Origin: Chloroflexota bacterium
Lineage (GTDB): Bacteria > Chloroflexota > Dehalococcoidia > Dehalococcoidales > RBG-16-60-22
Direction: 5' to 3'
DNA length: 34,672 nt
Assembly (NCBI GenBank): GCA_018829775.1
Contig: JAHJTL010000076.1
Location: 1 to 34,672 of the forward strand
Under the pieces are notes generated by a model that was given only the letters and a program-made list of their open reading frames with translations, made no database searches and was not told the origin of the DNA. Shown here one piece after another: positions 30,945-34,519 of this stretch; within the stretch, counting starts at the first letter, position 1; every line of letters starts with the position of its first letter. The translations under genes and the position numbers were made by a program.

Positions 30945-31254
30945 AAGTAGGAAATCTGTATGGTTAGTGAAACGGTACCTGCTGCTGATTAATCACAAAG
31001 CTTCTCAGGTCTGGTCTTACCCCACGAGCCCCACGCCGTGGAACTGAGTCTGCAATCACCAGGAAGAAATCATTGCGCCCATCCCCACAATACCAGCACC
31101 AACTCGCTATGGGAATATTATTTATGCCACAAAACAGAGAATAAGAAAATCGCCGACGCAATTATGTGATAAAAGTCGCTGATGTTTATCTAAAAAAGAA
31201 GCACCATTAAATATGTAGTCGCATTGAGCTAGATTGGAAAAGAGGTGCTATTTT
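30945..31254. other. Intergenic region with diverged repeat copy D
   Basis: A 310-base gap without a supported gene. It carries the fragment CCCACGAGCCCCACGCCG (31021-31038), identical to part of copy C but without its right arm. A weak AT-rich inverted repeat GATAAA/TTTATC lies at 31168-31190. I see no convincing promoter for the downstream gene. Confidence 0.5.
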
Positions 31255-31956
31255 ATGAAACCTAAACTGTATATCATAATACCTTTCACAGTGGTCCTTC
31301 TTTCTGCATTTACCGCGGGAATTTACTTCGCCATTGATAAAGCGGGATTTATCAGCGACGTCAAAACTGAGGAGCTGCAGACCGTAGAGATTCGGGAATA
31401 TGAGGGGAAAAATCTGTCCTCGGTCAATGACTTCCGCGAGAACTCCATCAAGGGGCCTCAGTACGTTGATACCGCCACGTACCAGCTTGAAGTCACCGGG
31501 CTCGTGGAAAAGCCTCTGAACTTCACCCACGAAGAGGTGATTGACAGCTACAAACACTACGAGAAAATGGTGAGGCTGGACTGCGTAGAGGGGTGGAGCG
31601 TCAACATCCTCTGGGAAGGCATGCTGGTGAGGGATATACTGAACGACGCCGGAGTATTGCCGGAGACCAAGAAGGTCATCTTTCACGCCTATGATGAGTA
31701 CACCACCTCCTTTCCCCTAGACTACATCATGGGCAATGACATCATCATGGCCTACAAAATGAACGGGATTATCATGCCGCCGGAACGGGGCTATCCTTTC
31801 CAGCTCGTCTCCGAGAGCAAGTGGGGCTATAAATGGATAAAATGGATAACCAAAATTGAGCTCTCGGATGACGAATACCACCGCGGCTACTGGGAAAGCC
31901 GTGGCTACTCCAACCATGCAGACCTGGACGAAAGTTTCTTTGAGTACATGCCTTGA
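31255..31956 (+). CDS. Molybdopterin-dependent oxidoreductase, sulfite oxidase/MsrP-like
   Basis: A 233-residue protein with an N-terminal membrane anchor or signal (residues 5-27) and a sulfite-oxidase-type molybdopterin domain. The likely molybdenum ligand is Cys110 in VRLDCVEGWSVNILWEG. Other family marks are YQLEVTGLVEKPLNFTHEEV, TTSFPLDYIMGNDIIMAYKMNG, and LPPERGYPFQLV-like and WGYKWIKWITKIEL at the end. It is shorter than eukaryotic sulfite oxidase and lacks heme and dimerisation domains, like MsrP. The ATG at 31255 follows AAGAGGTGC; a TTG 21 bases upstream is not supported. It is convergent with the cytochrome bc operon, which may supply or take its electrons. Confidence 0.88.
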   Translation: MKPKLYIIIPFTVVLLSAFTAGIYFAIDKAGFISDVKTEELQTVEIREYEGKNLSSVNDFRENSIKGPQYVDTATYQLEVTGLVEKPLNFTHEEVIDSYKHYEKMVRLDCVEGWSVNILWEGMLVRDILNDAGVLPETKKVIFHAYDEYTTSFPLDYIMGNDIIMAYKMNGIIMPPERGYPFQLVSESKWGYKWIKWITKIELSDDEYHRGYWESRGYSNHADLDESFFEYMP

Positions 31957-32095: not shown

Positions 32096-33301
32096 TTACT
32101 CATTATCGTGGCAGCTTAAGCACGTCTCATTAGTTCGCCCGCTATGATCTTCAGGGATTTTGGGTGCTTCAGCAATTCCGGCTTCGTGGCAGGCTAAACA
32201 GGCGGAGCGTCCCTCTATAGTATGCGGGACTGGAGGAGGAGTACTCGGCTCTGGAGGAGCTGGCGATACTTCCTCAGTGGTTTGTGGCTCTGATGGCGGG
32301 GGTGGTGGAGGAGAAGGTGCTTCGCCTTTCAAACTGGAAAGATAGGCTGCAATGTCTCTAATTTGTTCTGGAGTAAGAACATCACGGAAGGTTGGCATGG
32401 TAGCACCAGGCAGAACTGACTGAGGATCATTGGTAAAGGCCTCTAGAAAACTCATGGTGCGGCGCTCTCCGATTGTTGAAAGTTCAGGACCGAGTGCGCT
32501 ACCCTTATCGTTTATCATGTGACAACTTAAACAGTGCTCCTCAACTAGCATCGGTGCCTCTGGACTGAAGCTGACCGGTGCTCCTACGGTTTGCAGGTAG
32601 GAGGTCAGCGACTCCAATTCTTCATCAGTGAACAGAAGCTTGGGGTGCAGTGTAGTCGGAGTCATGGCATGGGGGTCCCGTAAGTAGGTGGAAAGTGTCT
32701 CTCGGTCAAGTTGACTGCCAACGCTAGATAGATCAGGCCCTATGTTACCACCTACTCCACCAATGCTATGACAGTAGGCACAATTTATCTCTTGGTAAAT
32801 ATCTCGCCCAGCCTGCACCAATGGGCTTTCTTCACCAGCTGGTGTGGCTGGGGCTGACATAGCTCCAGCCGCTTCCAAGAGGGCAAATATTATTACTACC
32901 AAAACTCCGCTGCCAATGACGCGTTTTCTCTGTATCCAGCCTCTTCCCAGACCACGGTCTATGAAAGGCACCAGAATGAGTATCAATAATGCAATCATAG
33001 GTATAACGACTGCCGCCACTGGTTCCAGCCAGCCGGGGAAGAGCTTAAGGAATTGGAAAAAGAACAAAAAATACCACTCCGGTCGGGGATTATAGGTGGT
33101 GCTGGTTGGATCGGCGGGAGGTTCGCTTGTAACCGGGAAGAGAATTGCTAGGACAATAATAGCCGTTACCACCAGCAAAGCTATCAAGGCATCACGAGCT
33201 AAAGTTTGGGGGAAAAATATTTCACCGCCTTTCTTGCTGGCCTCATAATTCTCTTGGTAACTTTCCCTTTTACTTTTACCTCGAGATAGTGACGGTTTCA
33301 T
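32096..33301 (-). CDS. Fused cytochrome b subunit IV and tetraheme cytochrome c
   Basis: A 401-residue fusion. Residues 1-150 are subunit IV of a b6f-type complex: three hydrophobic spans with the Qo-site motif PEWY (74-77). Then come two cytochrome c domains with CAYCH (174-178) and CLSCH (257-261), the second with a likely Met ligand in ATMPTF (Met302). A Pro/Ser/Glu linker (329-360) leads to a 40-residue tail with CLACH (368-372) and CLSCH (394-398). In all there are four heme-attachment sites. The complex would thus carry its own electron acceptor on the outer face. It is the last gene of a Rieske-b6-IV/c operon. Confidence 0.93.
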   Translation of the reverse strand: MKPSLSRGKSKRESYQENYEASKKGGEIFFPQTLARDALIALLVVTAIIVLAILFPVTSEPPADPTSTTYNPRPEWYFLFFFQFLKLFPGWLEPVAAVVIPMIALLILILVPFIDRGLGRGWIQRKRVIGSGVLVVIIFALLEAAGAMSAPATPAGEESPLVQAGRDIYQEINCAYCHSIGGVGGNIGPDLSSVGSQLDRETLSTYLRDPHAMTPTTLHPKLLFTDEELESLTSYLQTVGAPVSFSPEAPMLVEEHCLSCHMINDKGSALGPELSTIGERRTMSFLEAFTNDPQSVLPGATMPTFRDVLTPEQIRDIAAYLSSLKGEAPSPPPPPPSEPQTTEEVSPAPPEPSTPPPVPHTIEGRSACLACHEAGIAEAPKIPEDHSGRTNETCLSCHDNE

Positions 33302-33332: not shown

Positions 33333-33986
33333 CTACTTTTCCGGTGGGGCTGAAATCCCCTGCTTTATCACCAGAAAGATGTGAGTTACGATGAGCAGAA
33401 TAATTAGTGGCGGAATAACACCAATATGAAAGGTGTAAAACCGAGTGAGAGTCAGAGCGCCTATACTGCTACCACCAACAAGAACTTTCTGGATCCAAGG
33501 TCCTACCACTGGTGCTTGACTGGCAATACCAGTACCTACATTAGTTGCCCAGTAGGCTTTCTGATCCCAGGGAAGGAGATAACCCGTGAAAGAAGCTCCC
33601 ATAACCAGAATGAGCAGTAAAACACCTACAACCCAGGTCAGCTCTCGGGGGTATTTATAGGCAGCCATGAAAAAGGTACGCAAAAGATGCAAACCAATCA
33701 GAACTACCATGGCACCGGCTGACCAGGAATGTATGCTGCGAATAAAACCCCCGAAGGGCACCTCATGGGTAATATATTGTACGCTTTCATAGGCATGGTC
33801 TGGTGATGGGGAATAGTTCATCATTAAAAAAAGCCCGGTGAATGAAAGTAGAAGAAAAGTAACTAGGGTGGCACTACCCAGTGTATACCACCAGCCAACG
33901 CCCCGGGACACTTTCCGGTAAAGAAACCAATTAATGTTCTTCCTTATCTCTAGCCTTTCTTCAAACCATCCGCTTATGTTTGCCAT
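33333..33986 (-). CDS. Cytochrome b6-type cytochrome b, N-terminal half
   Basis: A 217-residue four-helix cytochrome b that binds two b hemes across the membrane. The four His ligands are at 86, 100, 187 and 202, the same spacing as chloroplast b6, with 14 residues between the last pair. Other marks are the quinone-site region GYLLPWDQKAYWA and a glycine-rich first helix. Position 35, where b6 has the Cys that attaches heme cn, is Thr here, so that heme is unlikely to be covalently held. The C-terminal helices are on the next gene. The ATG lies 2 bases after the Rieske stop. Confidence 0.95.
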   Translation of the reverse strand: MANISGWFEERLEIRKNINWFLYRKVSRGVGWWYTLGSATLVTFLLLSFTGLFLMMNYSPSPDHAYESVQYITHEVPFGGFIRSIHSWSAGAMVVLIGLHLLRTFFMAAYKYPRELTWVVGVLLLILVMGASFTGYLLPWDQKAYWATNVGTGIASQAPVVGPWIQKVLVGGSSIGALTLTRFYTFHIGVIPPLIILLIVTHIFLVIKQGISAPPEK

Positions 33987-33988
33987 GG

Positions 33989-34519
33989 TTACTGCTTCCT
34001 TTCCTTTGTAATCTGGCCACTTGCCAGGATATTCCCCCCTTCGATTGTGATTTCTAACCTGTCCAATGGGCGGGGTGGAGGTCCCTGGAGGACATTACCT
34101 TCAATATCAAACTCCCCATCATGACAAGGACATTTAAATATCTGTTTATCTTCATCCCAATAATAAGGACAATTCAGATGAGTACAGCGAGGGTCAAAAA
34201 CAATGAATTCCTCCTTATCTCTATTGACTATCCAGGCTCCTTTACTCCGTGTGGTGATATACCAGCCGTCACGCATTCTCTGCTCATAAGTTACGAATGT
34301 GGGTTGACCTGCTGGTATATCAGTGGTGCGAGCAATAGACGTAAGTAAGGGGGTACTCTTTTTCCAAATCGGCGAAAGAAAGTAGCCTATTAATGGAGAC
34401 GCTACGGCAACTGCGATGGCGCCGCTAATACCCCCGATAAGATAGCTGAGGAATTTTCTTCTGGAAACAGGTTCAGTCCCCGGTTTGGGTTCAGGTTGAT
34501 TTTTCCACTCGAAACTCAC
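33989..34519 (-). CDS. Rieske iron-sulfur protein
   Basis: A 176-residue Rieske protein of the bc complex, which takes electrons from quinol at the Qo site. A twin-arginine SRRKFLSYLIGG at residues 19-30 and one hydrophobic helix form the anchor and export signal. The [2Fe-2S] cluster ligands are Cys112 and His114 in CTHLNC and Cys130 and His133 in CPCHDGEF; Cys117 and Cys132 should form the stabilising disulfide. The start is GTG, with GAGG 8 bases upstream. It heads the operon as far as can be seen. Confidence 0.95.
   Translation of the reverse strand: MSFEWKNQPEPKPGTEPVSRRKFLSYLIGGISGAIAVAVASPLIGYFLSPIWKKSTPLLTSIARTTDIPAGQPTFVTYEQRMRDGWYITTRSKGAWIVNRDKEEFIVFDPRCTHLNCPYYWDEDKQIFKCPCHDGEFDIEGNVLQGPPPRPLDRLEITIEGGNILASGQITKERKQ

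Follow-up and report, generated by a model that had tools for sequence, protein, structure and literature searches.

We describe a fusion protein from a Chloroflexota bacterium (Dehalococcoidia, Dehalococcoidales, family RBG-16-60-22) in which subunit IV of a bc complex is joined to two cytochrome c domains, a proline-rich linker and a C-terminal diheme tail. In our reading, to which we give a probability of about 60%, the protein is the c-type output subunit of a b6f-like complex, and its tail would act as a tethered NapB-like diheme shuttle leading to a surface multiheme exit. Quinol oxidation and Rieske transfer are family-typical steps. The window, i.e. the whole stretch of DNA analysed, comprises 34,672 nucleotides and is an entire contig (C76 of the genome here called G000; GenBank JAHJTL010000076.1, assembly GCA_018829775.1). 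The genome is a draft of 118 contigs with 95.57% completeness.

The fusion ORF reads from 33301 to 32096 on the minus strand, stop codon counted in, and an AGGAG lies about 8 bases 5' of its ATG. It is the third gene of an operon ordered Rieske, b6, fusion gene, with intergenic gaps of 2 and 31 bases (Table 1). A separate b6 protein, a subunit IV with PEWY and a Rieske protein are encoded in this single operon, as in split b6f-like systems. The contig ends 153 bases past the start of the Rieske gene, and the region upstream is missing. Up to this end the operon contains no cytochrome f as output subunit; class-I c domains are found in the subunit IV chain instead.

Table 1. Features of the bc operon and of the adjacent gene (positions of the window; residues of the encoded protein).
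Feature	Position	Strand	Size, basis and remarks
Fusion gene	32096..33301	-	401 aa; subunit IV, two cytochrome c domains, linker and diheme tail
Subunit IV part, residues 1-150	32852..33301	-	PF00032 at 62-150; hydropathy; three transmembrane helices; PEWY 74-77
First cytochrome c domain, residues 158-240	32582..32830	-	PF13442; CAYCH 174-178; His219 where Met is usual
Second cytochrome c domain, residues 245-328	32318..32569	-	PF00034 at 252-325; CLSCH 257-261; Met302
Pro-rich linker, residues 325-358	32228..32329	-	Pro count; variable in relatives
NapB-like diheme tail, residues 354-401	32099..32242	-	His360, CLACH 368-372, His386, CLSCH 394-398
Cytochrome b6-type subunit	33333..33986	-	217 aa; PF00033, 168 bits; no Cys
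Rieske iron-sulfur subunit	33989..34519	-	176 aa; PF00355, 42.1 bits; Tat-type RR start; CTHLNC and CPCHDG
Convergent membrane-anchored molybdopterin enzyme, sulfite-oxidase fold	31234..31956	+	PF00174, 125.7 bits; probably no partner

The earlier note on this DNA had proposed such a fusion at these coordinates, and its architecture is borne out by Pfam, hydropathy and motifs. Cytochrom_B_C matches with 37.7 bits (cut-off 20.7), and Cytochrome_CBB3 (162-236) and Cytochrom_C both exceed their family cut-offs. Three hydrophobic stretches are centred at residues of about 48, 105 and 137; presuming that the topology of subunit IV applies, the C-terminal half of the protein would lie outside the membrane. 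PEWY is invariant in all 53 rows of an alignment made of the window and 52 of the 72 loci (from 80) with a usable frame; manual thinning removed the remaining 20, chiefly near-duplicates but also a few short sequences and L056, which has four c domains. The linker contains 15 prolines in 34 residues, or 15 in 30 over residues 329-358. CxxCH motifs start at residues 174, 257, 368 and 394, while the Cys and His content lets one expect 0.0035. The "tetraheme cytochrome c" of the earlier note is thus right as to the number of motifs, but a 2 + 2 arrangement describes it better, with two class-I domains of one heme each and a diheme module set apart from them. The tandem class-I domains correspond to a diheme QcrC-type output, and the protein scores 51.6 bits with the NCBIfam model of diheme QcrC-type proteins (NF050122), below the cut-off of 200. 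Foldseek matched a model of the full protein to Kustd1711, to cytochrome c chains of mycobacterial bcc complexes and to b6f subunit IV. The pLDDT of this model is mostly above 83 in the first c domain and mostly below 50 in the tail.

The core of the protein belongs to a known type. Split b6f-like complexes with a subunit IV-diheme c protein, known from Elusimicrobiota, Myxococcota and others, share with the window the Rieske protein, the four-helix cytochrome b and the PEWY subunit IV, and, counted from PEWY, the CxxCH motifs of their two c domains lie at +100 and about +183, as here. These proteins end after the second c domain, whereas the window protein adds the linker and the diheme tail; it also has His for Met in its first c domain. 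Among the best 80 of 407 confirmed matches in a contig scan, subunit IV with two c domains is found in Elusimicrobiota, Myxococcota, Acidobacteriota and others, and these two-domain forms mostly stop about 250-278 residues past PEWY. The view of the earlier note that the core is known and the tail less usual therefore holds, since the subunit IV-diheme core is common in other phyla and the tail is rare. A b6 protein and a subunit IV wired to multiheme cytochromes c also occur in the Rieske/b complexes with hexa-/octaheme c of the anammox bacterium Kuenenia; there, according to the part of the source covered, the multiheme cytochrome is a separate subunit that replaces cytochrome f and not a tail of subunit IV (PMC12954380).

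The tail is real and not a sequencing artefact. Order-wide, 3 of 156 genomes match across the subunit IV core (G000, G017 and G044), and the tail is intact in the bc operons of all three. Among 61 relatives searched, G017, of another genus of the same family, encodes a full-length relative (63% identity over residues 8-399), and G044, of a different family, a shorter one. In each of these two further assemblies the tail is in frame and 30 of its 48 residues are identical to the window. The second c domain of the window and G017 agrees in 43 of 84 residues, so that the tail is constrained at least as strongly as the adjoining domain. The linker sequence varies. Further tails were found neither in a class sample (19 of 393 genomes matching at 1e-25) nor in a phylum sample (57 of 400), in both of which frames were read for the loci returned and not for each match. 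As the contig scan covered the best 80 of 407 matches, other tail-bearing genomes may exist.

What kind of module is the tail? Its pattern, PPxVPHTxEGRxxCLxCH...PxxHxGRTxxxCLxCH, is represented by 33 distinct modules in the loci examined. All 33 share His360, the two GR arginines and the two CxxCH of the window version, an invariance partly built in because the set was collected by a motif requiring most of these residues. The second distal His stands in the same column in 24 modules; the other nine are chained repeats with Leu. In L023, L010, L009 and L032 chains of modules give rise to cytochromes of up to 15 hemes.

When PDB sequences were searched with a profile of the tail, the best match had an E of 0.0027, and NapB, the diheme subunit of periplasmic nitrate reductase, came up through chain 1jni (E 0.0033, domain E 1.4). 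This is weak alone, and for this reason a direct comparison with NapB was run. In hhalign the module aligns with a NapB profile with a score of 63.9, a probability of 97.6 and an E-value of 3.7e-12 over 46 columns, which span both distal His and both CxxCH; the profile combines the NapB of E. coli K-12 with those of six plasmid records, seven proteins in all, and 215 places in 199 records were available. The fused copies alone score 48.6 and the lipoprotein copies alone 50.4. As controls, the two c domains of the fusion protein itself score 21.7 and 20.0, NrfH-like proteins 21.0, the nonaheme 30.4, the hexa/octaheme 24.7 and NapC 25.9. In 200 column shuffles with CxxCH preserved, the highest scores are 35.4 (n=40) and 38.8 (n=160). 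NapB itself scores 40.6-42.0 with NrfH-like proteins, NapC and a multiheme c, hence the NapB signal is in part one that c-type multihemes have in common; the module nevertheless stands above this background.

Shared between the tail and NapB is the order PPxVPH(T/S)xEG, CxxCH, AP.I...H, R, CxxCH. In contrast to NapB the tail is shorter, is tethered to a bc subunit and stays below the Pfam NapB cut-off (PF03892, 13.7 versus 25.1 bits). The Pfam paired-CXXCH family (PF09699, cut-off 20.6) gives 19.5 bits with the whole protein and 25.0 with the tail scanned alone. Modelled alone, the tail reaches a pLDDT of 71.5 and a pTM of 0.44; Foldseek returned three matches to this model (E 3.2 to 8.7), none of them NapB, and the models accordingly neither favour nor contradict a NapB fold. 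NapA as partner of the tail was rejected: four of the five PF00384 places of G000, all but C26, score 242.7, 220.7, 104.3 and 60.9 with the NapA model TIGR01706, below its cut-off of 930.55, the C8 protein being scanned over part of its frame. As the PF03892 cut-off is not reached and no NapA is among the scanned proteins, we call the tail NapB-like and not NapB; by profile and motif it is best read as a minimal diheme module and a homologue of NapB. A NapB-like module on a bc subunit did not come up in a search of open-licence papers.

The same module is found elsewhere in the genome. G000 has it in exactly three places, the fusion tail, a diheme lipoprotein and the end of a hexaheme cytochrome c. 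The lipoprotein (L005:7372-7659; 95 aa) has an Ala/Pro-rich linker. This free Pro-rich diheme lipoprotein of the order resembles the fusion in module and kind of linker, with 52% identity within G000, but is anchored by a lipobox and not by a bc subunit. Its gene follows those of an NrfH-like pentaheme protein and of a nonaheme lipoprotein whose stalk resembles collagen, and it precedes CcmE/CcmF. A large multiheme lipoprotein of this kind is present in 9 of 61 relatives, with nine hemes in seven and five hemes in two. It is adjoined by the diheme lipoprotein in eight of the nine genomes (exception G024) and preceded by a pentaheme NrfH-like frame in seven (cut at the contig end in G017, none in G033). 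Genomes lacking the bc operon have this cluster as well, and in G000 it is located on another contig (C15) than the bc operon, i.e. there is no operon link. The gene set of G000 (L005:1861-10282) also includes a multiheme c with a C-terminal helix and a cytochrome b of the formate dehydrogenase gamma type, besides the NrfH-like pentaheme, the nonaheme lipoprotein (GPAGPP stalk, PKD domain), the diheme lipoprotein, CcmE and CcmF. This conserved set looks like an uncharacterised electron exit.

Because the module is shared and because of the neighbourhood of its lipoprotein form, the multiheme lipoproteins are candidate partners of the tail. Menaquinol would be oxidised at the site marked by the PEWY motif, and the electrons would pass from the Rieske protein to the first c domain, the second c domain and the diheme tail. 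The tail could swing on its Pro-rich arm, reaching a partner at a distance of tens of ångströms, and would dock on an extramembrane multiheme cytochrome, most likely the nona-/pentaheme lipoprotein; from there we infer flow to a final, possibly extracellular, acceptor. In this form the external acceptor suggested by the earlier note can be maintained, as a deduction from the module occurring in a lipoprotein beside a multiheme lipoprotein (eight of nine genomes) and from the missing oxidase of G000. COX1 (PF00115) was found neither in G000 nor in G017, with one partial match in G044, and bd oxidase (PF01654) in none of the three. The missing oxidase is weak evidence, since the genome is a draft.

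The second partner to be considered is the NrfD cluster. In G000 the genes next after the hexaheme cytochrome that ends in the module (L004:4502-5128) encode a TtrB/DsrO-like 4Fe-4S protein and NrfD. This cytochrome may be an additional or alternative docking target of the tail. It could also be the proper partner, in that two quinone complexes form a supercomplex and electrons move among the quinone pool, iron-sulfur proteins and the bc complex and not to the outside, which we regard as possible though rather doubtful. The arrangement in G044 fits this idea, where the tail-bearing bc operon directly precedes the genes of an octaheme c, in which three module matches overlap, of a 4Fe-4S protein and of NrfD, so that two contiguous gene sets both end in the module; likewise G000 has an NrfD cluster with the module, and G017 a multiheme c of the type found in the NrfD cluster. 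Yet bc and NrfD genes are adjacent in only one of the three tail-bearing genomes, and the lipoprotein has the module too. On the opposite strand of the contiguous G044 locus (L034:248-13501, contig C11), reading of the sequence suggests proteins that we take to be a formate dehydrogenase-like molybdoenzyme and HdrA- and HdrB-like proteins. Clusters of menaquinone:cytochrome c oxidoreductases in Methanoperedenaceae likewise place bc or NrfD complexes beside multiheme cytochromes, and the NrfD subunits of their group 1 fall together with the family RBG-16-60-22, to which the window belongs; the part of this source covered describes no fusion of subunit IV with a NapB-like module (PMC7327174).

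Extra cytochrome domains are also found on other subunit IV-c proteins. Two Chloroflexi loci, L037 and L038, bear a different domain in the same place, a third monoheme one that is joined by a Pro-rich linker (L037:5977-7332 and L038:2514-3830, CNTCH/CLPCH). L047 has a third c domain and L056 a third and a fourth. The end of subunit IV-c is a site of attachment for extra cytochrome domains, because these four loci bear c domains other than the diheme module there. L056 (L056:5335-7479), from a Hainich groundwater bacterium, with four consecutive c domains on subunit IV, represents another route to a long output arm. In a tree of the 53 proteins the window and L036 group with L037 and L038 (100/99), and L094, the G044 protein, is placed elsewhere (97/88). 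An AU test rejected holding the window, L036 and L094 together (p-AU 0.021), for a group that was chosen after the first tree had been seen and that includes the long branch L094. The wider group with L037 and L038 was not rejected (p 0.102). This suggests that the tail was fused twice independently.

That sister lineages differ in their tails, with monoheme domains in L037 and L038, is compatible with a tail that has no dedicated partner and serves as a generic electron buffer, and promiscuity has been reported for beta-type NapB, as far as the source was covered (PMC8782879). We consider this unlikely, as the tail is equally conserved in both relatives (30/48 identical) and its lipoprotein form has a recurring neighbourhood.

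The putative heme ligands bear on the direction of electron flow. Column 219 of the first c domain has Met in 47, His in four and Arg in two of the 53 rows. All four His rows are Chloroflexi, and each has Met213 alongside. Met213 is a possible substitute ligand, and a bis-His heme 1 is accordingly uncertain. Met302 of the second c domain is present in 48 of 53 rows, with a gap in five. The hemes of the tail should be bis-His, by homology to NapB. The replacement of Met by His in the first c domain and the NapB-like hemes together suggest unusually low potentials. For the bis-His hemes of NapB potentials of about -10 to -200 mV are given in the part of the source covered (PMC8782879). A low-potential tail is awkward as Q-cycle output, because NapB-like potentials lie at or below the menaquinone pool. 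Given such an energetically odd output, either the tail has raised potentials or the flow is reversible.

An external donor might reduce the multiheme wire, with the tail feeding a bc complex that runs backwards. The low potentials suggested by Met to His in 4 of 53 rows and by the NapB-like hemes (PMC8782879, as covered) would fit such reverse flow, and no terminal oxidase was found. However, heme 2 retains Met302, no donor enzyme was found, and reduction could be the task of CISM proteins, DmsA-like ones among them. We think reverse flow quite improbable and prefer a tail that delivers electrons to the multiheme lipoproteins.

The b subunit of the window, with 0 Cys in 217 aa, has no site for a covalent heme cn. 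It has Thr at the position of a Cys in the b subunit of G044, which we take to be the covalent heme cn Cys. A motif scan found a b subunit in 30 of 81 sources (the window and L036-L115), 4 with and 26 without Cys. The same tail is carried with two kinds of b subunit, a Thr type in the window and a Cys type in G044/L094.

The convergently encoded molybdopterin enzyme, a partner considered in the earlier note, lies 139 bases away, tail to tail, and both proteins face outward by sequence, but the link finds no support and is largely refuted by co-occurrence and neighbourhood, because homologues (E<=1e-20), present in 21 of 61 genomes searched, are lacking in the two other tail-bearing genomes G017 and G044 and the 80%-identical homologue of G005 has different neighbours, which makes this partner highly improbable.

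A wider picture can be drawn, at present a tentative and speculative one. The module may be an exchangeable NapB-like diheme plug on three membrane redox systems of one genome, the bc complex, the NrfD-type multiheme c and the lipoprotein beside the NrfH-like/nonaheme pair, all with one shared surface multiheme exit. Two or more fusions of the module to subunit IV would have taken place, and the bc complex, perhaps reversible, would operate at a potential close to that of menaquinone or lower.

Dehalococcoidales are better known for dehalorespiration. Beyond a few model bacteria, little is known of how surface multiheme cytochromes receive electrons from quinol-oxidising complexes, and in uncultured Chloroflexi the shared tethered diheme module would provide a specific part for docking. 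If the hemes of the tail are bis-His and of low potential, the complex would put to the test the rule that the Rieske/c branch of the Q-cycle lies well above the quinone pool.
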